Below, piece by piece: positions 4,593-40,644 of a DNA stretch of 47,034 nt (positions are counted from its first letter, which is position 1; each line of letters opens with the position of its first letter). The notes beneath the pieces were generated by a model that did not search any database, was not told where the DNA came from, and worked only from the letters and a program-made list of their open reading frames with translations. The DNA comes from Lachnospiraceae bacterium (GTDB lineage: Bacteria > Bacillota > Clostridia > Lachnospirales > Lachnospiraceae): positions 1 through 47,034 of the forward strand of contig JAEEXY010000017.1 of the NCBI GenBank assembly GCA_016288005.1. The letters are read 5' to 3'. A program made the translations under genes and the position numbers.

Positions 4593-5513
4593 ATGAGTCG
4601 GGAGAAGACTAAAAGAAACAGACTCCAGAGCGTATCCATACCGGCAGAGATCATATTCCATCTGATCGTCGGCGGCTTCGCACTGGCCTGTATCATACCG
4701 TTTATATTCGTTATCATCATTTCCTTCTCTTCGGAGGAGAGCATCAGACTGATCGGTTATTCGTTCAAACCGCTGCAGTGGTCGACAGAGGCGTACGGCT
4801 TCGTCCTCAAGATGGGCAGCCAGCTGTGGAGATCTTATTTCAACAGCTTCCTTGTATCGATCGTCGGCACCACCGTCAGTGTCCTGATGTGCCTGTTATA
4901 CGCATACGCGCTGTTCAGGAGAGATTTCAAGTACAGAAAGTTTTTCATGTTCTTTGCTTTCTTTACGATGCTGTTCGGAGGCGGACTCGCGCCGACCTAC
5001 ATGGTCTGCAAGCAGATGCTCGGACTCAGCGACAATTATGCCGCTCTTATAGTTCCGGCTCTCGTTAATCCGTTCTTCATCATCATTATGAGGACATTCC
5101 TTCAGACGTCGGTTCCCGAGGAACTGATCGAGGCCGCGGCCATCGACGGAAGCGGAGAGTATAACACATTGTTTAAGATCATCATTCCTATCTCAAAGCC
5201 CGGCATCGCTACGGTTTCGCTGCTCACGATGATCAATTACTGGAACGACTGGTTCCTGACCATGCTCTACGTCAGGGACAGCTCAAAGTTCCCGCTGCAG
5301 TACCTGCTGATGAAGGTACAGAACCAGGTTGATTTCCTGATCAAGAACTCGTCCGTTATCGGTATCGAAGCGTCCAAGATACTTCAGAACCTTCCCGGAA
5401 CGAGCCTCAGGATGAGCCTAGTTGTATTCATTGTTGTTCCGATCGCCTGCGCGTATCCGTTCTTCCAGAGATACATCATTTCGGGTCTTACGATCGGTTC
5501 CGTAAAAGGGTAA
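4593..5513 (+). CDS. Carbohydrate ABC transporter permease, YtcP/LplC type
   Basis: Second channel subunit of the importer, 306 residues with six hydrophobic segments. The EAA loop reads EAAAIDGSGEYNTLFKIIIP, followed by the usual conserved KPGIATVSL. Its N terminus (MSREKTKRNRLQ) is basic and cytoplasmic. It is 24 bases after the first permease and 57 bases before the binding-protein gene, so the three form one transport operon. Length and order (LplB, LplC, LplA) are typical of the family. Nothing looks damaged. Confidence 0.85.
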   Translation: MSREKTKRNRLQSVSIPAEIIFHLIVGGFALACIIPFIFVIIISFSSEESIRLIGYSFKPLQWSTEAYGFVLKMGSQLWRSYFNSFLVSIVGTTVSVLMCLLYAYALFRRDFKYRKFFMFFAFFTMLFGGGLAPTYMVCKQMLGLSDNYAALIVPALVNPFFIIIMRTFLQTSVPEELIEAAAIDGSGEYNTLFKIIIPISKPGIATVSLLTMINYWNDWFLTMLYVRDSSKFPLQYLLMKVQNQVDFLIKNSSVIGIEASKILQNLPGTSLRMSLVVFIVVPIACAYPFFQRYIISGLTIGSVKG

Positions 5514-5542
5514 GTACGGCATAGGGCCGCTTACATAAATAA

Positions 5543-5559
5543 ATACATTAAATGTATTG
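5543..5559 (+). promoter_or_regulatory. Small palindrome just before the binding-protein ribosome binding site
   Basis: ATACATT and AATGTAT form 7-base arms around one base, directly upstream of GGAGG at 5560-5564. It may stabilise or shield the highly expressed binding-protein message, or be a protein site; it is too AT-rich to be a terminator. Confidence 0.3.
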
Positions 5560-5570
5560 GAGGAAAAAGT

Positions 5571-7202
5571 ATGAAAAAAATCTTATCGATGCTTCTTGTA
5601 CTGGTTTTAGCTATCGGAATGCTGGCCGGCTGCAAGAAAGAAGCTGACAACGGCAATGGGGGCAACACCAGCCAGTCAAGTACCGACACAGGTTCAAAGA
5701 CCGACACAGGCAAGACAGACAACACCGCCGCTGCAACAACTACCAGACCCGACACTCATGTTGTTCTTAAGATGTACCTTGAGGGCAGCAACGTAACAGA
5801 TGACACAAAGGTTCTCGAAGAAGTAAACAAGTACCTTGATGAGAAGCTTAACTGCGAGCTTAAGCCCATCTGGGGAACATGGGGCGACTTTGATCAGGGC
5901 GCTGTTCTTTCACTGCAGGGCGCTGAGGACGTTGATATCTACTTCACATGTTCATGGACTCTTAACGAGTACAACCAGTTCGCACGCGACGGTTACTACG
6001 TAAGACTCGACAAGCCCGAGAACAACCTCATTGAGAAGTACGGACAGGATATCCAGAACCTTCTTCCCGAAGTACTCATCAAGGGTGCTACGATCGAGGG
6101 CGCTGACGGATACGGCATCTACGCAGTAAACGGCTACAAGGATATCGCATGCCAGCTTTGCTGGGACGTAAACGTTGATCTCCTTAAGAAGTACGGTTAC
6201 ACCGTAGAAGATATCGAGAAGGCTGATTACTTCACCTTCGGCGACATCCTCGCAAAGGTTAAGGCAGGAGAGGGCGAGAACTTCTATCCTCTGCTCATCG
6301 AGGGCGCGGTCCTTGAGCGTATGGTCGACAACTCGATTATCGTTGCCGGCGATTCCGGTTCCAACAACCTTCTTTCCTACTACATCAATCCCAAGAAGAC
6401 TTCCGATCTCGGCGCATACGGCAACAAGATCCTCAACAAGTTCGCTACCGACGAGTTCAAGAAGTTCTGCGAGAAGACCCGTGAGTACTATCTTGCTGGT
6501 TACATCGATCCCGATATGGCTAACCCCGAGAAGGCTAACGACGTAAGAAGCAACAAGCAGCTTACCGGTCAGTACCTCATCGGAACACAGTCCTATTCAC
6601 TGGGTTATGAGATCCAGGCTTCGACCGAGCGCGGTTTCGAGGTTGCCATGGTTCCCACCACACCCGCTTATGTTGACACGACCTCTTCACAGGGCGCTAT
6701 GATGGCTATCTCGACAGCGTCCAAGAACCCTGACAGAGCTATGATGTTCCTTAACCTGCTCAACACCGATCCTTATCTGTTCACACTGCTTGATTTCGGT
6801 GTACAGGGCATTCACTACAACATTAACGAGATCGGCGAGGTTGAGTTCACTCCCGAGAGAGATAACTACATGCCTTGGACCAACGGTCTCGGCAACGTAA
6901 CACTGCTTCCTCCTCAGAAGGGCCAGGGCGCAGACTTCCAGACCAAGTTCAAGAACTACTACGGCAATGCTGACGAGATCCCGATCCTCGGCTTCACCTT
7001 CAATCCCGAGAACGTAGAGAACGAGTTCGGCGCGCTTGCAAACGTAGCTGCTGAGTACTTCCTTCCTCTTTGCACAGGCGCTGTAGATCCTGCGGAGAAG
7101 ATCCCGGAGTTCCTTGCAAAGCTTGATGCAAACGGCATGCAGAAGGTCGTTGACGAAGCAAATAAGCAGCTCAGCGATTTCCTTGCGGCACAGGGCAAAT
7201 AA
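5571..7202 (+). CDS. Extracellular sugar-binding lipoprotein with DUF3502-type C terminus
   Basis: 543 residues. A lipoprotein signal ends in LAGC (Cys20), followed by a Gly/Asn/Ser/Thr/Asp-rich linker to about residue 55, then a family-1 binding-protein fold. The C-terminal stretch (GFTFNPENVENEFGAL; CTGAVDPAEKIPEFLAKL) matches the DUF3502 domain typical of LplA-like oligosaccharide binders. It is anchored on the outer face of the membrane and delivers sugar to the permeases at 3621 and 4593. GGAGGAAAAAGT gives a strong ribosome binding site. Codon use (AAG, AAC, CTT, GAC strongly preferred) suggests high expression. A REP-like palindrome begins 19 bases after the stop. Confidence 0.85.
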   Translation: MKKILSMLLVLVLAIGMLAGCKKEADNGNGGNTSQSSTDTGSKTDTGKTDNTAAATTTRPDTHVVLKMYLEGSNVTDDTKVLEEVNKYLDEKLNCELKPIWGTWGDFDQGAVLSLQGAEDVDIYFTCSWTLNEYNQFARDGYYVRLDKPENNLIEKYGQDIQNLLPEVLIKGATIEGADGYGIYAVNGYKDIACQLCWDVNVDLLKKYGYTVEDIEKADYFTFGDILAKVKAGEGENFYPLLIEGAVLERMVDNSIIVAGDSGSNNLLSYYINPKKTSDLGAYGNKILNKFATDEFKKFCEKTREYYLAGYIDPDMANPEKANDVRSNKQLTGQYLIGTQSYSLGYEIQASTERGFEVAMVPTTPAYVDTTSSQGAMMAISTASKNPDRAMMFLNLLNTDPYLFTLLDFGVQGIHYNINEIGEVEFTPERDNYMPWTNGLGNVTLLPPQKGQGADFQTKFKNYYGNADEIPILGFTFNPENVENEFGALANVAAEYFLPLCTGAVDPAEKIPEFLAKLDANGMQKVVDEANKQLSDFLAAQGK

Positions 7203-10421: not shown

Positions 10422-11216
10422 ATGTATAAAGTTGTGATAATAGATGACGAGCCCATAATCGTCGAGGGTCTCTCGAGGGCCGTGGACTGGAGCCGTTGGG
10501 ACTGCAAAGTCGCGGGTTTTGCGTATAACGGCAGGGAAGGGCTCGAAGTGATACGGCGGGAGAGACCGAATATCCTTATCTCGGATATCCGTATGCCCGA
10601 GATAGACGGCCTCACGATGGTGGCTGCGTTAAAGAGCGAGTTCCCGTATATGCAGATATCGATACTTACGGGGTACCGCGATTTTGAGTATGCACAAAAA
10701 GCGATAAAACTGGGCGTTTCGAGATTCCTGCTCAAACCCTCGAAGCTGGACGAGCTCGAGGAAGCCATCGCGGCCATGAAGAAAAAGCTCGATGACGCGG
10801 TAAGGGTTCATCCCGAGCTGATAGCCGACGGGCCTGCGGATGAGCCGGGAGATGATACCGGCCCGGATAATGACGCAGAGCTCGATGACAGCCCCGCGAG
10901 CAGCTTTATCGTGCATAACGCGATAGAGTATATCAAGGAGCATTATGCGGACAAATTAAGGCTTTCCGACGTTGCGGACGAGATATATGTGAGCCAGTGG
11001 CATTTGAGCAAGCTCATCAACAAGCATACCGGGAGCAATTTCTCGGAGATCCTAAACGGCATCAGGATCGAAAAGGCAAAACAGCTCTTAAAGGACCCTG
11101 CGCTGAAGATATACGATATCGCCGAACAGGTCGGTTTTTCCGATCTTACGCATTTTTCCAGGGTGTTTAAAAAGATCGAAGGCATCAGCGCTAACGAGTA
11201 CAGGAACAGGATTTGA
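10422..11216 (+). CDS. AraC-type response regulator (YesN-like)
   Basis: 264 residues. An N-terminal receiver domain (1-120) has the acidic pair Asp8-Asp9, phospho-acceptor Asp55 in LISDIRMPE and the conserved LLKPSK lysine. An acidic linker (about 140-165) leads to two AraC-type helix-turn-helix motifs, including YVSQWHLSKLINKHTG and IAEQVGFSDLTHFSRVFKK. It is the expected partner of the kinase at 7371 and most likely activates the sugar-uptake genes. No terminator follows; a promoter for the next gene starts 4 bases after its stop. Confidence 0.88.
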   Translation: MYKVVIIDDEPIIVEGLSRAVDWSRWDCKVAGFAYNGREGLEVIRRERPNILISDIRMPEIDGLTMVAALKSEFPYMQISILTGYRDFEYAQKAIKLGVSRFLLKPSKLDELEEAIAAMKKKLDDAVRVHPELIADGPADEPGDDTGPDNDAELDDSPASSFIVHNAIEYIKEHYADKLRLSDVADEIYVSQWHLSKLINKHTGSNFSEILNGIRIEKAKQLLKDPALKIYDIAEQVGFSDLTHFSRVFKKIEGISANEYRNRI

Positions 11217-11219
11217 GAC

Positions 11220-11248
11220 TTGACAACGATTTACTCTGACATTAAACT
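11220..11248 (+). promoter_or_regulatory. Sigma-70-type promoter for the NUDIX gene
   Basis: Perfect -35 TTGACA (11220-11225), 17-base spacer, -10 TAAACT (11243-11248), 45 bases before the ATG at 11293. It begins right after the stop of the response regulator gene. Confidence 0.6.
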
Positions 11249-11292
11249 TATAAACAGTTTAGGATAACGACACCGAAAGCGAGGTTTTTACC

Positions 11293-11745
11293 ATGGTAGA
11301 AGCGGTCAGCTGTGGTGGTGTAGTTATTTTCAGAGGAAAGATCTTATTGTTGTATAAGAATTACAAGAATAAGTATGAGGGATGGGTACTTCCTAAAGGA
11401 ACGGTAGAGGAAGGCGAAGAGTTTAATGAGACGGCGCTGCGCGAAGTAAAAGAGGAAACAGGCGTGGAGGCCCAGATCATCAAGTATGTTGGAAAAAGTC
11501 AATATACGTTTAATACGCCTCAGAATACTGTCATGAAGGATGTGCACTGGTACCTTATGATGTCTGACAGTTATTACAGCAAACCACAGAGAGAGGAATA
11601 CTTCTGTGACTCCGGTTACTACAAGTACCACGAGGCCTACCACCTGCTGAAATTTGCCAACGAAAAGCAGATACTCGAGCAGGCGTACAACGAGTATGTG
11701 GAGCTTAAAAAGAGCAACCTTTGGGGCAATAAGAAATATTTCTGA
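11293..11745 (+). CDS. NUDIX hydrolase
   Basis: 150 residues with a complete Nudix box, beginning GTVEEGEEFNETALREVKEE and ending TGVE (about residues 38-61), the Mg-dependent pyrophosphohydrolase signature. Substrate (nucleotide, diadenosine or mRNA-cap-like) cannot be read from the sequence. It has its own promoter, a GAGG ribosome binding site 8 bases before ATG, and a strong terminator after it, so it is a single-gene unit. The length is typical of small family members. Confidence 0.85.
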   Translation: MVEAVSCGGVVIFRGKILLLYKNYKNKYEGWVLPKGTVEEGEEFNETALREVKEETGVEAQIIKYVGKSQYTFNTPQNTVMKDVHWYLMMSDSYYSKPQREEYFCDSGYYKYHEAYHLLKFANEKQILEQAYNEYVELKKSNLWGNKKYF

Positions 11746-29626: not shown

Positions 29627-30115
29627 ATGGCAGATACTCTTGATATTAAGTACATTAATCCATTTCTTAAGGCAACGATCACTGTCTTTGAAATGCTCGG
29701 AATAGCAGGAGGTAAGGTAGGTAAGCCCAGCATTAAGGACCTTGATTTCCCGGCAAATACTTTCCTGATCCAGGTCGGCGTGACCGGAGCCATGAAAGGA
29801 CAGGTTTTCTTCGAGATAGAGGACCTGAAGGCCATGTCCATCGCCAGCACGATGATGATGGGTATGCCCGTTACCTCACTCGACCCGATGGCCTGTTCGG
29901 CTCTGCAGGAGCTCGGCAACATGATCCTGGGCAATACCTCGACGCTTTTCTCGACGATGAACATCATCTTTGATATCACGCCTCCGCTGTCGATGCACGG
30001 TGACAAACTGAAGATCCAGACCGAGACGCCCGCGATCTCGATTCCCGTGCTGTTTAATGACGAGGAGTTCATCAGGCTTTACATCGCCGTAACGGAAAAT
30101 AAGGACAACACATAA
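29627..30115 (+). CDS. cheX: CheX-like chemotaxis phosphatase family protein
   Basis: 162 residues. The CheC/CheX/FliY phosphatase fold is suggested by the N-terminal INPFLKATITVFEMLG and the helix SALQELGNMILGNTSTLFS, whose Glu and Asn match the ExxN catalytic pair that dephosphorylates CheY. One such helix is present, as in CheX rather than CheC. The rest has the expected strand pattern (MKGQVFFEIED; LKIQTETPAISIPVLFN). AGGAG precedes ATG by 8 bases and a terminator follows, so it is a single gene. It may serve chemotaxis or a CheY-like regulator near the HD-GYP genes. Confidence 0.75.
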   Translation: MADTLDIKYINPFLKATITVFEMLGIAGGKVGKPSIKDLDFPANTFLIQVGVTGAMKGQVFFEIEDLKAMSIASTMMMGMPVTSLDPMACSALQELGNMILGNTSTLFSTMNIIFDITPPLSMHGDKLKIQTETPAISIPVLFNDEEFIRLYIAVTENKDNT

Positions 30116-30130
30116 TAACATACTTGATCG

Positions 30131-30160
30131 AAACGCCGTATTTCATATACGGCGTTTTTT
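30131..30160 (+). terminator. Intrinsic terminator after cheX
   Basis: AAACGCCGTAT (30131-30141) pairs with ATACGGCGTTT (30147-30157) around TTCAT, followed by a T-run. Confidence 0.9.
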
Positions 30161-30345: not shown

Positions 30346-30374
30346 TTGAAAATTACGCGTGTAAATTGTATAAT
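30346..30374 (+). promoter_or_regulatory. Promoter of the HD-GYP / adenylate cyclase operon
   Basis: -35 TTGAAA (30346-30351), 17-base spacer, perfect -10 TATAAT (30369-30374). The -35 begins 4 bases after the MITE-like element. ATG 30425 follows a leader of about 45 bases with AAAGAGGAAAAAGG. Confidence 0.7.
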
Positions 30375-30424
30375 TAATTGTTGAAGATTTCGCATTTTTC
30401 AGAAAGAGGAAAAAGGCCAACCCC

Positions 30425-31903
30425 ATGATTTTAGTAGATAATCTGACGGAGACAATATTAGAGACCGCCAAGGACCTGACAAGGCCCATGGATTATCCGC
30501 GTCTGCTCGAAGAGATAATCAACGACGCAATGAGGATAACCAATTCTGACGGCGGTACGCTATACATCATGATCAACAATGCGCTGTATTTCATGATCAT
30601 GATCACAAAATCAAAAGATTTCCGCCGCGGAGGTGACGGCAAACCTGTCGATTTGCCTCCGGTTGAGCTGGATTCCACTTCTGTCTGCGCATATGTTGCC
30701 AGGACCAAGACCACCAAGAATATCGCAGATGTCTATCACGATAAGGAGTTTAACTGGGACGGCCCCAAAAAGTATGATAAACTCAACGATTATCATACAT
30801 GCTCCGAACTCGTCGTTCCTCTGATAAACCACGAACAGAAGGTTATCGGAGTTCTCCAGCTGATAAACGCTCATGACGGCGACGGCAATATCGTCGCGTA
30901 CACCGAACAGGAAGAGCAGATCTGCGAGGCGATAGGGTCTCTGGCCGCAGTCAGCCTCTCTAACAGCAACATGATCAAACAGCTGCAGGAGCTGCTTGAT
31001 TCCATCGCGCTTTCGTTCACCGATGCGATAGAGACGAGGACGCCTTTCAACGCGAATCACACACGCCACGTGGCGCAGTACTGCTGGGATTTCGCCGAAT
31101 TCCTGAACAAACGCGCGCAGGAGGAAGGAAAGACCAACCCGACCCTCGACGAGAACAGCTGCGACCAGCTGTATATGGCCGCGTCCCTGCACGATATCGG
31201 CAAGATGTCCGTATCGCGCAGCCTGCTGAATAAGGCCGACCGCCTCGGCCCCTACATGGATCGCATGAAGGAGAGATGGCGCTTTATCCTGACCGATCTT
31301 CGAGTAAAGAAATACGCGGGCACCGTGACCGACGACGAGTATGTGCGGACCGCGCGCAGATACAACGAATACATTGATTTCATAATGCGGATCAACACTG
31401 CCGGATATCTCGATGACGAGACGCTGGAAAAGGTTGAGGAGATCGCGGCTGAGAGATATTGGACATTCGACGGTGAAGAGATCATGTTCATTTCCGAGCC
31501 TGAAGCCGAGGACTTAAGAGTCCGCAAGGGTACGCTGACGACCGAGGAACGCAAGGCCATCGAAAAGCATGCGGTTTATACTTCCAAGATCCTCGAAAAG
31601 ATAACCTTCGGTGACAAGTACAATCGCGTACGCTTCATCGCAGGCGCGCATCATGAGTATCTGGACGGTTCGGGTTATCCCGAAGGCCTGACGGCCGATA
31701 AACTTCCGATCGAGGTACGTATCCTCACCATCATGGATATATTCGATTCTCTGACGGCCGACGACAGGCCCTATAAAAAGGCTCACGACAAAGACGGCGC
31801 ATTAAGAATACTCTCGGCCATGGTGACCGAGGGCAAGCTCGATCCGGAACTCGTGGAGCTCGCGAAGGAGTTTTTTGTAACAGAACCTATACTTGATCGT
31901 TAA
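30425..31903 (+). CDS. GAF-HD-GYP protein (predicted c-di-GMP phosphodiesterase)
   Basis: 492 residues, no membrane segment. A GAF domain (about 10-185, with SDGGTLYIM and SELVVPLINHEQKVIGVLQL) precedes an HD-GYP domain. The HD-GYP residues are complete: first His in NANHTRHVAQYC, HDIGK at 256-260, His in EKHAVYTSKIL, HHE at 409-411 followed by LDGSGYP, and FDSLTADDRPYKKA. The HDIGK-to-HHE distance is 153 residues, about 90 more than usual, because of an inserted helical, charged segment (about 275-375). Expected to hydrolyse c-di-GMP in the cytoplasm in response to a GAF ligand. First gene of a four-gene operon; the cyclase gene starts 12 bases after its stop. Confidence 0.85.
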   Translation: MILVDNLTETILETAKDLTRPMDYPRLLEEIINDAMRITNSDGGTLYIMINNALYFMIMITKSKDFRRGGDGKPVDLPPVELDSTSVCAYVARTKTTKNIADVYHDKEFNWDGPKKYDKLNDYHTCSELVVPLINHEQKVIGVLQLINAHDGDGNIVAYTEQEEQICEAIGSLAAVSLSNSNMIKQLQELLDSIALSFTDAIETRTPFNANHTRHVAQYCWDFAEFLNKRAQEEGKTNPTLDENSCDQLYMAASLHDIGKMSVSRSLLNKADRLGPYMDRMKERWRFILTDLRVKKYAGTVTDDEYVRTARRYNEYIDFIMRINTAGYLDDETLEKVEEIAAERYWTFDGEEIMFISEPEAEDLRVRKGTLTTEERKAIEKHAVYTSKILEKITFGDKYNRVRFIAGAHHEYLDGSGYPEGLTADKLPIEVRILTIMDIFDSLTADDRPYKKAHDKDGALRILSAMVTEGKLDPELVELAKEFFVTEPILDR

Positions 31904-31915
31904 CAGGGGTGGACA

Positions 31916-33886
31916 GTGAAAACTATCAAAAAGATCAATTATAAAATCATTATAGCTGCATTGGTAACCGGGTTACTGGTATTTATTCTTGCGTTTGCAG
32001 ATCCTAAAAAGGGAGCTGCGGATACGGCGGAATTCGGGCCCAGATTCCATGATTTTGTTTCAAACAGATTATTATATAATGGTTTGGAAGCACTTGATTT
32101 GAAAATAACCGACACGATATATCAGCCGGACTGGAATACGGCATTGGATATCTGGGTTATCGGAATTGATAGTGAAACACAGGATGAGCTTGGCCCTCAA
32201 AGCTCATGGCAAAGAGACAAATACGCCGAACTTCTGGATAATCTGCATAAAGACGGCTATTCACCTGCGGTGGTATGCTTTGATATTCTGTTTAGTGGTG
32301 AAAAGGATCCGGAAAAGGATAAGCTTTTTGCAGATACATGCGCCAAATACGGCGATACGATCCAGGGTGTTTATTTTAATTATGGCTTAAGACATGTATA
32401 TGAAGAGGATAATGTCCATTATTATGAAGAAAGCTATATAAAGAAGATTGATGGACCTTATGCTGACCTTGCAGCTGTTACGAAGCAGGCATGTACCAAT
32501 AATGATATCAGCGCGGACGGTTACGCCAGAACTGTCTTTGTCGATCGTATGAGCGATGAACCCGTTGATTCTCTTGCATTGGCTGCGTATAAGGCATATC
32601 TGGAATATAACGGCGAAAATTATGTACCTCATAAATATATCGCGGATAAGAAGCAGAATACCATATATTTCACGTACTCAACCACACTGAACAAAAACTC
32701 CAAGCCGTTTTCTTACAGACCTTTTTATGAGGCGCTTACCGATGAGAATTTGGCTCAAAATTGTGATGGAACCATAGTTTTCGTCGGTGCTTATGATGTA
32801 GCTATGTCCGATGATTTCTTTACTCCGGCAGGCAAGGATAAGATGTATGGAGTGGACATCCATGCAAATACATGTGAGGCAATCGCACAGGGAAAGCTTT
32901 ATGTACCTGCCAACAGGACGACGGTTGCTATAGTATACAGCATTTTAAGCGTACTGCTTGTATTCTTTGTTTATTTGTCAGCACTGCCCATAGCAATCTC
33001 AGCTTCGGTCGGAGCGATCGCTCTTGATTTTATCGCAAACTGGATAGCAAGAAAGAACGGAGTTTATCTGCCGATCGTTTACTTTGTAGTACCCGCATTC
33101 ATTGTCATTGTTACCGCGACCGTACTGCATTACCTCGCCGCACGCGCCGAGAAAGCGAAGATCAACAACGCATTCAAGATGTATGTTGCGCCGGAGGTCG
33201 TTGATGAGATGGCCGGCAGCGGCTCATACGAGCTGAAGCTCGGCGGACAGACCAAGGATATCGCGGTTCTGTTCATCGATATCCGAGGGTTTACGACGAT
33301 GTCCGAGGGTCTGCATCCCGAGGAAGTGGTAAGCATCCTGAACGAGTATTTCGGTCTCGTTACCGACGCGATATTCAAGAACAAGGGTACTCTCGATAAG
33401 TTTATCGGAGATGCCGCGATGGCGGTATTTAACTCACCGAACGACCTGGACGATTACGTTTACAGAGCGGTGCACACCGCATGGGATATAGCGCTCGGTT
33501 CACAGGAGCTCGCGCAGAAGCTGCTCGATACGCACGGCAGGACGATCAACTACGGTATCGGCGTTAACTGCGGACCCGCTACTATAGGCAACATCGGCTC
33601 CGAGTTCCGTATGGATTTCACGGCGATCGGAGATACCGTCAATACCTCGGCACGCCTCGAGGCAAACGCCAAGGCCGGCCAGATCCTCATTTCACAGGCC
33701 GTGTACGACAGGGTTAAGGACTGGATCGAGACAGAGGAGATAGGCACGATACCGCTCAAGGGTAAATCAAACGAGATCTTCGTTTATAATGTTATAAATG
33801 TTAAGGACAAGCCCGGCTACATCGAGAGCCGCAGCGAATCCGGAAAGAAAAACAAAAGGAACAGGTTAAACCATGGACAGATTTGA
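31916..33886 (+). CDS. CHASE2-domain adenylate cyclase (class III)
   Basis: 656 residues from GTG 31916 (GGGG 6-9 bases upstream). N-terminal membrane segment (about 10-30), an extracellular CHASE2 sensor (about 50-335), three membrane segments (about 340-410), then a class III cyclase domain. Metal Asp455 (LFIDIRGFT) and Asp499 (KFIGDAAMAVF), adenine-selecting Lys495 and Asp567 (RMDFTAIGD), and transition-state Asn576 and Arg580 are all present, so it should make cAMP and work as a homodimer. The sensor half (to about 33100) is clearly richer in A+T and uses different codons from the cyclase half. Its end overlaps the next gene by 14 bases. Confidence 0.88.
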   Translation: MKTIKKINYKIIIAALVTGLLVFILAFADPKKGAADTAEFGPRFHDFVSNRLLYNGLEALDLKITDTIYQPDWNTALDIWVIGIDSETQDELGPQSSWQRDKYAELLDNLHKDGYSPAVVCFDILFSGEKDPEKDKLFADTCAKYGDTIQGVYFNYGLRHVYEEDNVHYYEESYIKKIDGPYADLAAVTKQACTNNDISADGYARTVFVDRMSDEPVDSLALAAYKAYLEYNGENYVPHKYIADKKQNTIYFTYSTTLNKNSKPFSYRPFYEALTDENLAQNCDGTIVFVGAYDVAMSDDFFTPAGKDKMYGVDIHANTCEAIAQGKLYVPANRTTVAIVYSILSVLLVFFVYLSALPIAISASVGAIALDFIANWIARKNGVYLPIVYFVVPAFIVIVTATVLHYLAARAEKAKINNAFKMYVAPEVVDEMAGSGSYELKLGGQTKDIAVLFIDIRGFTTMSEGLHPEEVVSILNEYFGLVTDAIFKNKGTLDKFIGDAAMAVFNSPNDLDDYVYRAVHTAWDIALGSQELAQKLLDTHGRTINYGIGVNCGPATIGNIGSEFRMDFTAIGDTVNTSARLEANAKAGQILISQAVYDRVKDWIETEEIGTIPLKGKSNEIFVYNVINVKDKPGYIESRSESGKKNKRNRLNHGQI

Positions 33887-36194
33887 TTTAGACGATTACA
33901 TGACAAACGGGCAGTACGGGACGCCCAAGCTGCACATTATCCCCAATTACAAAGAGGCTCAGAAGTGGTGCGATCTGGCAAAGGAGCTGGATGCCGCGTT
34001 CGAGTACAATGAGTTCTTTATCCCGGCAAACGTGGATAACGAAGAGCTCTGCAGGAAGATAATCGACACCTACAAATCGCTGGACCGCGACCGCAGCATG
34101 GATACGCTGCACGGCGCATTCCTCGATATCGTTGTCAACAGCTCGGATGAGTTCGTTCGCAACAATTCGAGGATGAGATGCCGCCAGAGCATGAAGATCG
34201 CCGAGGAGCTCGGCTGCCGCGCTGTTATTTTCCATACCAATTACATCACCGGATTTAAGTCGTATTCCTACCGCGAGAAGTGGGTCATCGACAACGCCGA
34301 GTTCTATCGTGAGCTGCTCGAGGAGTTCCCGAATCAGTGCATCTTCATCGAGAATATGTTCGACGATACTCCGGAGCTCTTGAAAAAGCTCGCTGTCGAG
34401 ATGAGATCCGAGGAGCGTTTCGGCGTATGCTTTGACATCGCGCACGCATTCTTATGGGATTTCCCGCTGGAGGCCTGGATCGAGGAGCTGGGCCCGTTCA
34501 TCCGTCATGTCCATGCGAATGATAACTTTAAGGATGAGGACTCGCATCTGCCCATCGGTGACGGACGTCTGCCGTGGCTGCTGATCAACAGCGGCGTTTT
34601 CAAGCGCAACCGCTGCTCGTTCCTCATTGAGGTAAACGGCATCGACAATGTGCGCAAATCATACGATTACCTGACCAAGAACCATTTGTATTTCTTTGAC
34701 AGACGACGCAGGACCAGGCTAGCGATCACGAACGACCTGAAACGCGTGCTCGATATCGGCATCGCGCTTACTGCAGAGAGAGACCATTACAAGCTGTTCG
34801 ACCTGATCGTAAGTGAGGCCATGTCGCTCACCAGATGCGAGGCCGGTACGTTATACATTCTCCAGGACGGTATGCTGTACTTCAAGATACTGCGCAACGA
34901 CAGGATGAATGTATATGAGGGCAGGAACGGCGAGCCAATCACCATGCATCCCGTTGCACTCGATGAGAAGTATGTCTGCGCGTATGCTGCCATTCATAAG
35001 AAATCCGTCAATATCGAGGATGTTTACGCCGACGATAATTTCGACTGGAAGGGACCGCGTGAGTATGACCGCGTGACCGGATACGAGACCCGCTCAATGC
35101 TCGTAATACCGCTGGTTAATCATGATAATGAACTGATCGGCGTGCTGCAGCTCATGAACGCGCATGATGACGACAATAACATCTGCGGATTCGGCACCGA
35201 CCAGGAATACGTTACTTCCTCGCTGGCATCACAGGCGGCGATATCGCTGTCGAACATGATCATGCTGAAGGAACTGAAGGATCAGATGTATTCCTTTGTT
35301 TCCTCATTCGCGACCGTTATCGATGCCAGAACACCTTATAACGCAAAGCACACCTACAATGTAGCGAAGTACTGCACGAAGTTTGTAGATTATCTCAATA
35401 AGCTCAACAAGCTCGGCAAGAGCCCTTACAGCATAGATGAGGAGATGAGAGAGCAGCTGATGCTCGCCGCCATGCTGCATGATGTCGGCAAGGTTGTCAT
35501 CCCGCTCGAAGTCATGAACAAATCCGACAGGCTGTCCTCGATGCTTCCGATCATGAGGATGCGCTGGAAGTACATCAAGCTTGTTCTGGAAATCCAGCAT
35601 TTATCCGGAGCCATCAATGACAGTGACTATGAAGAAAAGCTCAAAGAACTCAACGACAACATCGACTTTGTCGAGAAAACTAATGTGGCGCCTTTCCTGG
35701 ACGATGAGGTATTTGCCCGTATCGACGCGCTTGAGAAGTTTGTTTACACGGGACCCGGCGATGAAAAAGTAGAGTTCGCCACAGAGGAGGAGCGCGAGGA
35801 GCTCAAGATCCGCAAAGGCACGCTTACCGCTGCCGAGAGAGCCAAAATCGAGGAGCACGTTGTATTTACCGACAAGATACTTTCAAAGATCCAGTTCGGT
35901 TCAAAGTACGATAAAGTTAGATTTATCGCGGGCGCGCATCATGAGTTCATCAACGGATCGGGTTATCCGAACAAGCTCGCTGGAGATGATATCCCGCTTG
36001 AGGTAAGGATACTTACGATCATGGATGTATTCGATTCGCTGTCGTCATCCGACAGACCTTACCGTAAGCAGAGTTCGCTGGCTGAGACATTCGAGATCCT
36101 CCGCGCGATGGCGAAGGAAGGCAAGCTCGATATAGGTCTGGTTGAGATCGCGCGTGACTGCTTCGTTCCTGATGATCAGTTAAACGGTTTTTAA
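33873..36194 (+). CDS. TIM-barrel (sugar isomerase/endonuclease IV-like) - GAF - HD-GYP fusion protein
   Basis: 773 residues, soluble. Residues 1-275 form an AP-endonuclease-2/xylose-isomerase-like TIM barrel with plausible metal ligands in order: TLHGAFLDIV, VIFHTNY, IFIENMFDD, VCFDIAHAF, IRHVHANDN, FLIEVNG. Residues about 295-450 are a GAF domain (CEAGTLYIL; SMLVIPLVNHDNELIGVLQL). The rest is HD-GYP: NAKHTYNVAKYC, HDVGK at 536-540, HHE at 689-691, then INGSGYP (Asn where Asp is usual) and FDSLSSSDRPYRKQ. GAF and HD-GYP parts are close paralogues of the protein at 30425, with the same 153-residue HD-to-HHE spacing. I know of no standard family with this three-part layout. Confidence 0.85.
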   Translation: MDRFDLDDYMTNGQYGTPKLHIIPNYKEAQKWCDLAKELDAAFEYNEFFIPANVDNEELCRKIIDTYKSLDRDRSMDTLHGAFLDIVVNSSDEFVRNNSRMRCRQSMKIAEELGCRAVIFHTNYITGFKSYSYREKWVIDNAEFYRELLEEFPNQCIFIENMFDDTPELLKKLAVEMRSEERFGVCFDIAHAFLWDFPLEAWIEELGPFIRHVHANDNFKDEDSHLPIGDGRLPWLLINSGVFKRNRCSFLIEVNGIDNVRKSYDYLTKNHLYFFDRRRRTRLAITNDLKRVLDIGIALTAERDHYKLFDLIVSEAMSLTRCEAGTLYILQDGMLYFKILRNDRMNVYEGRNGEPITMHPVALDEKYVCAYAAIHKKSVNIEDVYADDNFDWKGPREYDRVTGYETRSMLVIPLVNHDNELIGVLQLMNAHDDDNNICGFGTDQEYVTSSLASQAAISLSNMIMLKELKDQMYSFVSSFATVIDARTPYNAKHTYNVAKYCTKFVDYLNKLNKLGKSPYSIDEEMREQLMLAAMLHDVGKVVIPLEVMNKSDRLSSMLPIMRMRWKYIKLVLEIQHLSGAINDSDYEEKLKELNDNIDFVEKTNVAPFLDDEVFARIDALEKFVYTGPGDEKVEFATEEEREELKIRKGTLTAAERAKIEEHVVFTDKILSKIQFGSKYDKVRFIAGAHHEFINGSGYPNKLAGDDIPLEVRILTIMDVFDSLSSSDRPYRKQSSLAETFEILRAMAKEGKLDIGLVEIARDCFVPDDQLNGF

Positions 36195-36216
36195 GGCATA
36201 GGGAGGGCCAATACCG

Positions 36217-39183
36217 ATGAGTAAAAAGACACTATACATAGGAGGCGGCGCGATCGGCGGTGTGATAGTCATCGCACTGATCGTTGTGTTGATCCTGAAC
36301 GGGCGCTCAAAGGACCTTGAGGCCAGACAGATCACGGTTTTCGATCTGTTCGGCGAAGCTGTGCTGAACCGCGGCAACAAGGAACTCAGCGTTTCCAAGG
36401 ATATGAAGCTGAAGTCCGGCGACGGCATCAAGGTTGGGGAAGGGTCTGACTCGTTTATCAGACTCTGTCTTGATGACGACAAATTCGTTTACGCCGAGTC
36501 CGGCACCAATTTCTCGATCGACGCCACAGGCACATCGCAGAACAGCAAGAGCGTTATACATCTGCAGTCCGGCGGAGATCTGGTGTGCGAGGTACAAAAC
36601 AAGCTGAACGGTGATTCGTCGTTCTCCATCCAGACACCGAATACGACCATGGCTATCCGCGGTACGATCGTTGGTCTGCGTGTTGATAAAACTACAGACG
36701 CGAACGGCAATGAGATCTATGTCTCGGAAGCTGTATGTCTCGAGGGCAGCGCCATCATCGCGATCATGACCGATGACGGCCCCGTATATGCGACTGCGCC
36801 TGCAGGACAGGGTATTACCGTTACAGGCCCCGCACAGGTTGTTGAGGACACATCAAACATAGATATGTCTCAGGTGGTTTCGATCGAGCAGGCGGTCGAG
36901 ACTCTTAAATCACGCGGCATCGAAGCATCAGCTGATGTGGATGAAGAACATTACAAAGAAATGCTTCGCTCTCGTGAGGGTGATTTGGACAACCTCAGTA
37001 ATACTATGATAATTACTATAGAGGACGAAGAGCCCACGACTCCGCCTACAGAGCCTCCTACAGAAACACCTTCAGAGCCTCCTACTGAGCCTCCTACAGA
37101 GGCACCTACACCTGAGGCTACACCTACACCCGAAGCTACGGCAACGCCTACGCCGGAACCTACGGCTACAGCTACGCCCGTACCTGCTACGGCTACGCCT
37201 ACACCCAGGCCTACAACGCCTCCCACGGAGCCTCCGACAGAGCCGCCTACATTAACTCCTGTACCGACTCCGTCGACTATACCTACTCCCACACCGACAC
37301 CTGAACCGTCGCCTACACCGACGTCTTCACCGACATTGACTCCTACACCTTCGCCGTCGCCGACTCCGACACCTACTCCGAGTCCGACTCCTTCACCTAC
37401 TGAGGAGCCCACTCCGGAGCCTACAGAGGAGCCTACACCCGAGGTAACACCGGAGCCGCCGACAGATACACCGACGCCGGAACCGACACCGACGGCTGAA
37501 GCATCTGTAAATGTAACAGTTTCATTTAGCGATCCTGCAATGTCTCAAGCTATTTTGAATATCTTTGTTGAGAATGATTATATAGATGGTCTTGGGACAT
37601 CCGGTGATAATTCAATATCTTTTACACTCAAGGAAGGAACAAGCATCGATTTACCCGGATCTTTAGAGTATACTCCTTCTGAAATTGGCTATTCCTGGGA
37701 TCCGGATACGACAGAAATACATGTAGTATGGTATTACAATGATAGTACAATTACCTCTGTAAGCGTTGAATCGTTTGGAGGATCAGAAACGGCATCCCTT
37801 TCTGTTCAGCAAGATCACGGATATACTGCAAGATTGCATTATAATCCTGATGGGATAATGTTTAACGGTAATGATGAGCAGCTTCCTGAGGAAAGAGTAG
37901 AATCTGTGTACTATTCACTTTCGAACTCAACAAGTCAAACATTAAGTTTTTCATACGGAACTGCTTCAGATGCTGTTTATAAAAAGGAGGTTATTAATTC
38001 TACCGAATGTATTCCATTAACGTTTTATTATATTAATAGCTGGTATATAGAAGATACGGAAGAAACAATTACTTCGCTATCTTCGGATCTCGAAGAATAT
38101 GCAGATGAAGATGGATACATAGATCTTTATCCTATTTGGAAACCTACTGTTACACTTCCGGTAGACTCATATTTATATGGTGGTGAAGTTACAATGGGAA
38201 CTGATACCTTTGTAAATAGATCCATAAGACCTGATGGCGGAGATAGTCAAAGTTATTATATCGGCATTTTGAATGGTGAAGGCTCCACAATTTATCTTCC
38301 TGTGTGGGAATATGCTTTGGGCTCACCATATCCTTTGGGTGTTTCGACTGCTGTTAATTATGCCGTTGTTCGGCAAACCGGGTGGGTTATGTACTCAAAT
38401 TCGGGAAGCGCTATTTCGGATCCCACTTCGACTATTGGGCTTGAAGCAATTGAAAAACTAGCAAGCGGAGAAGCGGAATTACGTCCGTATGGAAGTTCTT
38501 TGCTTGAAGGAGCTCATATTCTGTATCAGAATTATGATTATTGTATTCCTGCAGGAAATGATTTATTCTCTGAATGCGAAATAGTATCAAATTCTCATGG
38601 GTTATGCATTGAAACCGCTAGCCTTAGCGAGATTATTTATGGATATGATCCGGATAATAAGATACTTGATGTGGCAGTATTTAGATCACCTACAGTTTTA
38701 CCTGTAAATGAACAAGGCCTGTTTTTCTGCACTAACGAAACTTATTTGATGAGTCAGTTCATAAGTAATATGACTTTTGAAAGCGGAAAGGTATATAATA
38801 TCTCAACTTATATTCAAGATAGTATTGGAGTTCAGAATTTCATTACTGACACGTATGTTGATGATGAAAATGCTTTTAATGTCGGTATTAGTATGAATAA
38901 CCTTACAGGTAAGGATCGTTATACAGACTATACTTATAACCTTTCTTATTTGCTGCAGGCTAAATTCAGCGCTTCAGAAAGTTCCTCCGGAAGTGCAATT
39001 ACTGTAACACTTGGAACAGTTAACATGCAAAATGGTAATTATAGTTTCAATTCAGATGCTATTTCCGGAATGGTCTGCGATTGGGATTATTATGATGATG
39101 ATAAGATCATTATCGCAAAGTTTACTTTTACTAATCCGGATGCACTACTTTTTGACTATAAATTAAAGTATCCGAGAGAATAG
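36217..39183 (+). CDS. FecR-domain surface protein with Pro/Thr-rich linker and AT-rich C-terminal region
   Basis: 988 residues. A single N-terminal membrane segment (about 6-28) without cleavage site leaves the rest outside. Residues about 40-200 are FecR-like ([40 protein letters not shown]). A Pro/Thr/Glu-rich linker (about 265-430, PTPTP-like units) could cross the cell wall. The C-terminal 560 residues are Tyr/Asn/Ser-rich with strands, one segment ([20 protein letters not shown]) recalling Listeria-Bacteroides (InlB B) repeats. The DNA from about 37500 is markedly AT-richer than before. FecR and CHASE2 proteins often occur together, so it is a likely partner of the cyclase. Last gene of the operon, 22 bases after the previous stop. 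Confidence 0.75.
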
Positions 39184-39198
39184 CTGGCTGAATAAGCG

Positions 39199-39232
39199 AA
39201 ATCCCCTCACCTTCTGGTGAGGGGATTTCTTT
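39199..39232. terminator. Strong bidirectional intrinsic terminator
   Basis: AAATCCCCTCACC (39199-39211) pairs perfectly with GGTGAGGGGATTT (39216-39228) around TTCT, followed by CTTTAT. It ends the signalling operon and the convergent fapA gene. Confidence 0.92.
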
Positions 39233-39237
39233 ATCTC

Positions 39238-40644
39238 TTATGAGAAATTATTTATCACCTGTACCTGTCCGCCGGTATCCTTCAGCGTGACATTCGTGAA
39301 CGTATCTCTGGTATTGTAGTGCAGGCCGTTGATCGTGATATAAACGCCGGGGTAGAGGAACTTCATGACGTTTATCTTTGAACTCGAGTAAGTAGAGATC
39401 AGGAACAGCTTTTGGCTGAGGACAGTGGATTTGTCTTTCAGTTCGGCACTCAGTGTCGTGATGGAATTCTCTATCTGTTCGAGGGTTTCCTGGAACTTGG
39501 CCGCATCGGTGGGATTGGTGATCTGGTTCATCTTGCGGCGGACCTCATGGAGTTTTTCGAGCTTATTCTCATCGTCTTTGATCTCGGCCTCGAGGGCGGA
39601 GATCTCGGTGATGGTGTTCGGGTTCGTGCCGGCGTTGATCATGGTCTTGACCTCGGAGAGGTTGCCGATGATCGTGGATTCGATGTTGCCGGAGCAGGTG
39701 GTACTGCCGCCGACGATGATGCCGAAACGACCGGTGACATATATGTTGCTCTCGCAGAAGAGATCGCAGTTCATGATCGAATTGGCGTGGAAATCACCCT
39801 TGCAGTGGATGCTGGTGGACTCGAAGAACTTGCCCCAGACATCGGCGTCGGAAACTACACTGCCTTTGTGGCCGCCCTGCATGCCGGCCTTGATCTCGAT
39901 GGTGCCGCCCGCGTAGATATTGGCTTCTTCGACACTGCCGAGGATCGTGAGATTGCCCTTGCAGCGGACGCTCGTACCGGTCATGACATTGCCGTGTATG
40001 ATAACGTCGCCGCCGAAGACCACGTCGCCGGTCGTCATATCAACGTCCGTTTTGATCTCGAGAGTGTTGGTTATGCGGATCGAGTTATCCTGCCCGAGCT
40101 CTATTTTACCCGTGAGGTTGGAGTAGTAGTGGTTGCCGTCCTCGGAAACATAGAAGCCCTCGCCCTTCAGCGCGGTCTGGTCCTTGCCGGGGATGCAGGA
40201 GAGGAACTTATTCTTGACATCGTAACCGAAACTGCCCTTGGTAGCGGGAGTGTAGGTTACGACCTCCTGGTCCTTTGTTACGGACTCGTACATCTCGATA
40301 TTGCGGTAATCGACTGAGCCGTCCGCCTGAACCTTGGGTTTATTGTCAACGTGGGTCTTGAAATGATATGTGAAAAAACCGTCAGTACCGTTGACTGCGG
40401 GCTTTCCTTTGGCGATCACATGATAGGTATCGTAGAGCTTGTTGATGATGATGCTTTGGATGAGGGGTTTGTCTATACCGGCCTTGACGCCTTTTTCCTT
40501 AAGGAACTCCATGATATTCTCGACGGTATAGAGGTTGGTCGCGTCCTCACCCCATGACGGAGGAGTAGAAGACAGGTACAGCCTGGCTTCCATGGAATCT
40601 TCGGAAATAAGAACCTTAACGGTTTCTTCGAGTCTGTTATCCAT
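39238..40644 (-). CDS. fapA: FapA (DUF342) family protein
   Basis: 468 residues. The N-terminal region (to about 160) contains the FapA/DUF342 start (VKAGIDKPLIQSII; IAKGKPAVNGTDGFFTYHF). A right-handed parallel beta-helix like the MinC C-terminal domain follows (about 180-330: GDVVFGGDVIIHGNVMTGTS; CKGNLTILGSVEEANIYAGG; IEIKAGMQGGHKG). A coiled coil (about 345-405) precedes a short C-terminal domain. The family is called flagellar assembly protein A and is linked to polymer-like or polar structures, with uncertain function. GGAGG precedes ATG by 7 bases; single gene with its own promoter and terminator. Confidence 0.85.
   Translation of the reverse strand: MDNRLEETVKVLISEDSMEARLYLSSTPPSWGEDATNLYTVENIMEFLKEKGVKAGIDKPLIQSIIINKLYDTYHVIAKGKPAVNGTDGFFTYHFKTHVDNKPKVQADGSVDYRNIEMYESVTKDQEVVTYTPATKGSFGYDVKNKFLSCIPGKDQTALKGEGFYVSEDGNHYYSNLTGKIELGQDNSIRITNTLEIKTDVDMTTGDVVFGGDVIIHGNVMTGTSVRCKGNLTILGSVEEANIYAGGTIEIKAGMQGGHKGSVVSDADVWGKFFESTSIHCKGDFHANSIMNCDLFCESNIYVTGRFGIIVGGSTTCSGNIESTIIGNLSEVKTMINAGTNPNTITEISALEAEIKDDENKLEKLHEVRRKMNQITNPTDAAKFQETLEQIENSITTLSAELKDKSTVLSQKLFLISTYSSSKINVMKFLYPGVYITINGLHYNTRDTFTNVTLKDTGGQVQVINNFS

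Follow-up and report, generated by a model that had tools for sequence, protein, structure and literature searches.

How does a bacterium use an operon that sets a putative surface sensor, an adenylate cyclase and two GAF-HD-GYP proteins side by side, and what is the role of the TIM domain fused to one of them? This question was raised by contig JAEEXY010000017.1 of a Lachnospiraceae bacterium (assembly GCA_016288005.1), whose 47,034 nucleotides are referred to as the window. Open reading frame (ORF) calling placed four genes on one strand (30425-39183, + strand), separated by 12, -14 and 22 bases. They encode a GAF-HD-GYP protein of 492 amino acids (copy 1, 30425-31903; Pfam GAF 45.9 bits, HD_5 112.6 bits), a CHASE2 class III adenylate cyclase of 656 amino acids with a GTG start (31916-33886), a TIM-GAF-HD-GYP fusion of 773 amino acids (33873-36194; Pfam AP_endonuc_2, GAF and HD_5) and a FecR-like surface protein of 988 amino acids (36217-39183). 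An original prediction had described these four genes between a promoter-like site and a terminator, with gaps of 12 and 22 bases and a 14-base overlap, and this layout was confirmed by ORF calling; its domain calls were confirmed by Pfam, FecR being found only below its cut-off in the window protein. The four-gene set proved to be a widespread conserved module of (gut) Lachnospiraceae, and the TIM domain was best read as a putative cyclic AMP (cAMP) phosphodiesterase of the Endo IV fold, the eraser of a circuit acting on cyclic di-GMP (c-di-GMP). Loci and genomes are denoted by L and G numbers.

Conservation of the gene set

The cyclase was used as query against 299 Lachnospiraceae genomes (298 genera), and stretches were fetched around the matches. 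Matches were obtained in 56 genomes, of which G096 and G187, both without TIM, matched in the CHASE2 part only, and 49 full-length CHASE2-cyclase loci, window included, formed the family set. By tblastn, GAF-HD-GYP was present at 30 of these loci, FecR at 38, TIM at 23 and a gene for an MBL-fold protein at 16, and the cyclase occurred together with GAF-HD-GYP, FecR and either TIM or MBL at 24; some contigs end within the stretch, which limits these gene-set counts. MBL was counted at 15 loci by ORF calling, a wrong-strand ORF having masked the copy in L074, and the cyclases in L158, L161 and L190 were hidden likewise, and L170 was missed by ORF calling. FecR was counted at 37 loci within seven genes of the cyclase and at 38 over the whole stretch.

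A second set of loci was drawn from named genomes by a pattern scan with the TIM alignment, and the best 80 of 316 relatives were kept; these are the loci closest to the window and are uninformative on distant TIM proteins. Near these best 80 TIM loci, a CHASE2-cyclase was found in 75, GAF-HD-GYP in 62 (63 of 78 by profile), FecR in 63 and MBL in none, and the cyclase, TIM, GAF-HD-GYP and FecR genes stood together in 50. Most carried the name of Lachnospiraceae or of one of its genera; others were labelled simply Clostridia, Clostridiales, Eubacteriales or bacterium, and single loci Clostridiaceae (L134), Eubacteriaceae (L145) and Bacillales (L157). The two sets overlap partly (for example L127/L045, L159/L047 and L168/L053). 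Lachnospiraceae bacterium COE1 (L180) is one organism with the module. Adjacent cyclase and TIM genes shared one strand in 66 of 66 named pairs (median gap 5.5) and in 16 of 16 family pairs.

The original prediction had named as one ground for its refutation that the four genes are rarely neighbours in relatives; the counts in the best 80 TIM loci (50) and in the 49 family loci (24, with TIM or MBL) speak otherwise. A chance neighbourhood was rejected because the family repeatedly shows the same genes on one strand and closely packed, and an orphan four-gene oddity because the set recurs in many relatives. The conserved neighbourhood supports the earlier idea of a single circuit insofar as it joins an outside sensor, cAMP and c-di-GMP.

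A class-wide search gave matches in 19 of 381 genomes, and 15 stretches were inspected. A TIM of the module type lay by a cyclase in L228 and L229 and in the remnant L230, which all belong to a single other family; the twelve lower-scoring loci L231-L242 had no cyclase in the stretch, at least four of them lying at a contig end. L230 (9049-10239) was rejected as a working cyclase-TIM fusion, since it reads as an internally deleted remnant in which a partial CHASE2 runs into an incomplete TIM, as if the cyclase-TIM pair decays together.

The TIM domain

The TIM domain (AP_endonuc_2, Endo IV-like) covers residues 1-285 of the fusion (33873-34727, + strand) and scored 83.5 bits against a Pfam cut-off of 31.1, which places it in this superfamily, TIM fold included. 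At most loci it is a separate gene of about 260 amino acids beside class III cyclases; L047 has such a stand-alone gene at 10908-11693, and fusions of TIM to GAF-HD-GYP were observed in the window and at L045 and L121-L127. Residues H80, H121, E160, D188, H191, H214, D223, H225 and E253 were among the invariant columns of 13 TIM proteins, and a second set of 43 rows kept them without exception. We take them to be the counterparts of the Endo IV zinc ligands H69, H109, E145, D179, H182, H216, D229, H231 and E261, and profile alignments with MJ1311, TTHB071 and Endo IV line up all nine positions. The model of the 773-residue fusion was confident within domains (predicted local distance difference test score 92.3, predicted template modelling score 0.63), and the Foldseek matches of its TIM half included TTHB071, MJ1311, UlaE, psicose epimerases and Endo IV.

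Compared with the NCBIfam models, the 13 TIM proteins matched deoxyribonuclease IV in 13 cases, CbiR in 12 and fructoselysine 3-epimerase in 8, all below cut-off. The window domain scored 24.2 bits against nfo (cut-off 129.65) and 38.1 bits against the CbiR model NF041277 (cut-off 105), far below the level of Endonuclease IV proper and of CbiR. No match of the window fusion to PDEase_II or NF041851 was found at E 0.01. Elsewhere in the host genome NF041851 gave one weak match (32.2 bits against 400), as it did in 11 of 14 control genomes, and these weak matches are probably RNase Z.

The original prediction had assigned no role to this domain, which proved the most informative of the set. Further evidence came from the distribution of the domain. 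TIM matches of at least 135 bits were found in 31 genomes, and all 31 were among the 56 of 299 genomes with a cyclase match; 12 genomes with weaker TIM matches were left out, namely G241, which has TIM by a cyclase, and 11 without a cyclase match. At 9 of the 23 TIM loci there was no GAF-HD-GYP. Because TIM tracks cyclases, also where GAF-HD-GYP is lacking, it was taken as a putative cAMP enzyme, and as a strong candidate for a new phosphodiesterase class. A precedent is given by CbiR, a member of the AP endonuclease 2 superfamily active in cobamide remodelling, which is reported to cleave a small-molecule phosphodiester and to be inhibited by EDTA (PMC7733943); therefore this superfamily can acquire small-molecule phosphodiesterase activity. 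CbiR is also oxygen-sensitive. The window TIM differs from CbiR in its score, well short of the CbiR cut-off, and in its genomic context.

The xylose isomerase-like name of the Pfam family, the structural matches to UlaE and psicose epimerases and the 8 of 13 sub-threshold matches to fructoselysine 3-epimerase would fit another role, that of a metabolic sugar isomerase or epimerase that informs the cyclase of its activity or of the level of its substrate, coupling sugar status to second messengers. This role was judged unlikely. Sugar isomerases use four ligands, whereas nine Endo IV-type ligands are invariant in the 43 rows; the deoxyribonuclease IV and CbiR models match more TIM members; the identified recurrent neighbours are signalling or surface proteins, several neighbour clusters being unassigned; and TIM is replaced by an MBL hydrolase at other loci.

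Alternation of TIM and MBL-fold proteins

Other CHASE2-cyclase loci form a second group that has, where TIM would stand, an MBL-fold protein of usually 256-292 amino acids; the MBL gene of L075 lies at 5049-5843. Among 47 genomes with a CHASE2-cyclase, TIM was present in 26, MBL in 18, both in none and neither in 3. A further 5 genomes outside these 47 had TIM (at least 135 bits), each with a cyclase match in the catalytic part, and another 2 (G063 and G168) had MBL and no cyclase match. Ten of the 49 loci held neither gene, and seven of their genomes hold one elsewhere, TIM in G004, G190 and G080 and MBL in G048, G006, G281 and G293; the G080 cyclase sits in the MBL branch of the cyclase tree. 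In L115, MBL and GAF-HD-GYP form one protein of 783 amino acids, the mirror image of the window fusion. Two MBL proteins were scanned; RNase Z models matched both best, NF041851 more weakly (27.5 and 54.4 bits, cut-off 400), and one matched PDEase_II with 17 bits, which is under the cut-off. The alternation counts as a single historical event, together with two fusions and the cases without CHASE2, and not as dozens of independent events; Fisher p-values for TIM and MBL were dropped as independent evidence because of the single change on the cyclase tree.

The fusions also bear on a different reaction: TIM and MBL might complete the work of HD-GYP by hydrolysing pGpG or another linear dinucleotide, hence the joining of each to GAF-HD-GYP. 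MBL-GAF-HD-GYP pairs without a cyclase in the stretch (L109, L112 and L114, with L109 and L112 on short contigs), TIM beside HD-GYP in L105 and the RNase Z likeness of MBL are in agreement with it. We nevertheless regard a dinucleotide substrate as distinctly unlikely. At CHASE2-cyclase loci GAF-HD-GYP is lacking beside 9 of 23 TIM and 2 of 15 MBL genes, some of the cyclases next to TIM match in no more than the catalytic part (L097, L101-L104), and a cyclase match exists in every one of the 31 genomes whose TIM reaches 135 bits.

Adenylate cyclase and FecR-like surface protein

The window cyclase was identified by Pfam CHASE2 (7.4e-30, 104.8 bits; region about 32072-32947) and Guanylate_cyc (4.6e-27; catalytic domain about 33248-33778), and it is the sole CHASE2 and the sole PF00211 match of its host genome. 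Residues D455, K495, D499, T569, N576 and R580 were each kept in 116 of 116 aligned rows, some rows being one genome fetched twice. We take them to be the two metal Asp (D455, D499), the substrate Lys (K495), the base-selecting residue (T569) and the transition-state Asn and Arg (N576, R580) of class III cyclases, all of which are thus present. The original prediction erred in naming a base-selecting Lys/Asp pair; the pair is Lys495/Thr569, with Lys and Thr in all 116 rows, and it aligns with the DFTAIG motif of CyaC (1wc1). A cyclase of the Lys/Asp type was rejected on this alignment and comparison. Because the catalytic residues are intact, we infer that the cyclase makes cAMP.

In the window FecR-like protein the FecR domain (about 36445-36693) scored 21.3 bits against a Pfam cut-off of 24, below threshold. 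The FecR gene of a relative in L047 passed at 45.5 bits, and the window protein aligns with the L047 protein. Alignment of the FecR-like proteins revealed a conserved N-terminal FecR-type region with a 10-letter motif and a variable C-terminus; a hydrophobic N-terminal stretch and a Pro/Thr-rich linker are present, membrane anchoring being judged by eye.

Other partners of CHASE2 were also observed. An NHL-repeat-type protein, identified by Pfam on the L066 and L079 proteins, adjoins the cyclase in 6 of the 49 loci (L066, L073, L076, L079, L080 and L090) and is perhaps an alternative outside sensor. L093, L094 and L096 each encode a protein of about 680-704 amino acids in which CHASE2 is fused straight to an HD-GYP region, with a FecR gene adjoining in L093 and L096; here CHASE2 may control an HD-GYP enzyme with no cyclase in between.

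GAF-HD-GYP proteins and putative readers of cAMP

The second GAF-HD-GYP copy, the latter part of the fusion (34728-36194, + strand), was delimited by ORF, Pfam and structure model, and its top Foldseek match was PmGH (4mcw). Of the eight PmGH metal ligands (E185, H189, H221, D222, H250, H276, H277 and D305), seven were invariant in 27 of 27 rows, and the E185 position was Tyr in 25 and Phe in 2, which assigns these proteins to the Y/F subfamily defined earlier (PMC4159591). This subfamily is probably a two-metal one. In the HHExxDGxGYP signature, HHE and GYP were kept in all 27 rows and D was replaced by N in 12, window copy 2 included; window copy 1 keeps D. An extra segment of 102-104 amino acids, from N549 to L651, lies within the HD-GYP core in all 27 rows, flanked by the HDxGK helix and the metal-ligand His that follows it. 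It is mostly helical in the model, occupies about 100 residues of copy 2 (35520-35822, approximate borders, by alignment and model) and has a counterpart in copy 1 (within 30425-31903). Both window HD-GYPs matched HD_5 only from position 62/63 to 167/170, a partial match not shared by most of the genome's 18 others.

The HD-GYP half of copy 2 found its best PDB sequence match in V-cGAP3 (5z7c, 3.6e-22), which would suit a pair that breaks down 3'3'-cyclic GMP-AMP (3'3'-cGAMP) rather than c-di-GMP. That substrate seems improbable, given 34 GGDEF matches in the host genome and a c-di-GMP enzyme, PmGH, as top structural match; sequence rank among HD-GYPs does not fix the substrate.

Full-length GAF-HD-GYP relatives were found in 37 of 299 genomes, 34 of them with a CHASE2-cyclase. 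GAF-HD-GYP was found at 30 of the 49 family loci and a cNMP-binding profile at 7, never together, with three changes on the tree, as expected if both read cAMP. Pfam was run on the cNMP-type proteins of L047, L059, L097 and L104, and the domain was present in all four. At L047, Pfam identified FecR, cNMP-SpoIIE, CHASE2-cyclase, TIM, HATPase, STAS and GGDEF; the same parts were found by profile at L048, L056 and L059. L097 and L104 have no more than cNMP, TIM and a cyclase whose match is confined to the catalytic part. A further arrangement was observed at L101 (9089-14677), L102 (5786-11108) and L103, where TIM is accompanied by a class III cyclase, a GAF-GGDEF-type gene and one additional gene; the additional gene of L101 is TIR by Pfam, and the set recalls cyclase-TIR (Pycsar-type) defence arrangements.

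Three described proteins bear on how cAMP and c-di-GMP are linked. Tlr0485 of Thermosynechococcus is a cAMP-activated GAF-HD-GYP c-di-GMP phosphodiesterase, and Lcd1 a cAMP-activated GAF-GGDEF protein (PMC8846402). Tlr0485 resembles the window proteins in carrying GAF and HD-GYP in one cAMP-activated protein and differs in that its description, on which the comparison rests, mentions no TIM fusion or cognate operon. PDB entry 5w10 shows Lcd1 with cAMP. In Bdellovibrio, cAMP controls the c-di-GMP phosphodiesterase Bd1971 (PMC6717892), described as an EAL enzyme with a CRP-type sensor in contrast to the GAF and HD-GYP of the window.

The original prediction had treated cAMP and c-di-GMP as parallel outputs. 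In such an arrangement FecR/CHASE2 would alter cAMP and the HD-GYP pair would follow a GAF ligand of its own. GAF ligand specificity is unreadable from sequence, and two other cNMP-binding proteins of the host genome could be the cAMP targets. The mutual replacement of GAF-HD-GYP and cNMP-binding proteins (30, 7 and none together, of 49) and the Tlr0485 precedent argue against parallel outputs, which we consider rather unlikely. A series is likely in view of the recorded cAMP-activated GAF-HD-GYP and GAF-GGDEF proteins and is favoured also by Bd1971: an outside signal would act on cAMP, cAMP on GAF and GAF on HD-GYP, leaving less c-di-GMP.

The proposed circuit

In the proposed mechanism, the FecR-like protein and CHASE2 would sense a signal on the outside of the cell membrane, and the cyclase, with its intact catalytic residues, would then make cAMP. 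By precedent, cAMP would bind the GAFs of the two HD-GYP phosphodiesterases and set the rate of c-di-GMP destruction. TIM would hydrolyse cAMP through an Endo IV-like metal centre and end the signal. In the genus of the window, the putative eraser and one putative reader are parts of a single polypeptide, so that the response would stay local and limit itself. A self-contained cAMP circuit of this kind, with c-di-GMP as output and TIM as cAMP eraser, was given about an even chance.

Several observations count against this circuit. The closest solved relatives of TIM, MJ1311 and TTHB071, are titled D-tagatose 3-epimerase-like or uncharacterised, and because they keep the same ligands, the ligand set is no proof of hydrolysis. 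In 4 of the 31 TIM genomes (G014, G190, G004 and G080; L105-L108) no cyclase is near TIM within the stretch, and TIM stands by itself or next to an HD-GYP or GGDEF gene; in L105 the neighbour is another HD-GYP gene. For both scanned MBL proteins RNase Z is the better match and NF041851 the poorer one, and the TIM/MBL difference amounts to one change on the cyclase tree, which was built by a quick method. As for the readers, 3 of the 37 GAF-HD-GYP genomes (G076, G168 and G170) have no cyclase match, and the nearest PDB sequence of the HD-GYP half is a 3'3'-cGAMP enzyme. The best PDB relatives of the GAF domains were PDE5, CyaB2, the PDE2/6/10 GAFs and PmGH, and a control, the GAF part alone of a GAF-ABC protein, gave matches of the same kind; this likeness to cyclic-nucleotide-binding GAFs is not specific, and PDB similarity was dropped as proof of cAMP binding. 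In the GAF motif NKxnFx3DE, Lys is replaced by Ala in 24 of 27 rows. FecR is absent by profile from 11 of the 49 family loci, L045 of the same genus included.

Relation to described systems

A cluster of CHASE2-adenylate cyclase, cAMP phosphodiesterase, FecR and TPR proteins has been described in Campylobacterota (PMC9239204). It shares with the window the CHASE2 class III cyclase, the neighbouring FecR-domain protein and a neighbouring phosphodiesterase, for which the window offers a candidate. As described there, it contains no HD-GYP and no TIM protein, and its phosphodiesterase family is not named. In the BiofilmReg operon of Burkholderia, a CHASE2 receptor adjoins a FecR-domain protein (PMC5192318); according to its description that operon differs in having a histidine kinase and a response regulator, no cyclase or HD-GYP, and a FecR protein with LysM. 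Among the titles found in a literature search, with most subscription journals outside its reach, none described the Lachnospiraceae module or an Endo IV-fold cAMP phosphodiesterase. The original prediction knew of no system with this exact set, which holds for the full Lachnospiraceae set and not for its CHASE2-cyclase, phosphodiesterase and FecR part, known from Campylobacterota. The relay from cAMP to c-di-GMP is a variant of known clusters, and the TIM protein is the candidate new part.

Borders of the operon and host genome

A sigma-70-type promoter-like site (TTGAAA-17-TATAAT, 11 of 12 consensus positions) lies at 30346-30374 (+ strand) and ends 50 bases 5' of the first operon gene. By eye, it was kept in the near-identical L121 and was not seen 5' of the corresponding gene in L122 or L123. 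A comparably good site arose in 13 of 100 shuffles of the 14-kb region, and the promoter is for this reason plausible but not proven. An intrinsic-terminator-like hairpin of 14 pairs (39198-39229, + strand) begins 14 bases 3' of the FecR gene, and L121 has a comparable hairpin 3' of its FecR-like gene (by eye). On the left border, another terminator-like hairpin (30130-30158, + strand) closes the upstream CheX-type gene. The operon is flanked by this CheX-type gene (29627-30115) and a FapA gene (39238-40644, - strand); CheX was also seen near the operon in L045, L121 and L122, and FapA in L045 and L121-L123.

The host genome comprises 3.3 Mb in 136 contigs, is 99.55% complete and 5.98% contaminated, and gave 34 GGDEF, 20 HD_5 and 7 AP_endonuc_2 matches by profile search. 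Its two cNMP-binding proteins, in L043 (with an antiporter-like membrane part) and L044 (770 amino acids), are by eye not Crp-type regulators, no family search having been made. The L043 gene (1281-3224, - strand) joins a cNMP-binding domain to an antiporter-like membrane protein (by eye), and this protein is a possible direct target of cAMP in the host genome.

Implications

To our knowledge, cAMP signalling in Clostridia has been little studied. Just short of an even chance was given to the wider proposal that TIM founds a new class of cyclic-nucleotide phosphodiesterases with the Endo IV fold, unrelated to classes I (HD), II (MBL) and III (calcineurin-like), and that Lachnospiraceae have in this operon a complete cAMP device, with writer, reader and eraser, that is hard-wired to c-di-GMP. 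If TIM does degrade cAMP, a DNA-repair fold would have gained a signalling role, many 'sugar isomerase' annotations would need correcting, and the fused eraser and reader would be a compact example of local second-messenger control. For a host genome rich in c-di-GMP enzymes (34 GGDEF and 20 HD_5 matches), the module suggests a specific input, namely one cyclase to which two HD-GYP enzymes would be wired.

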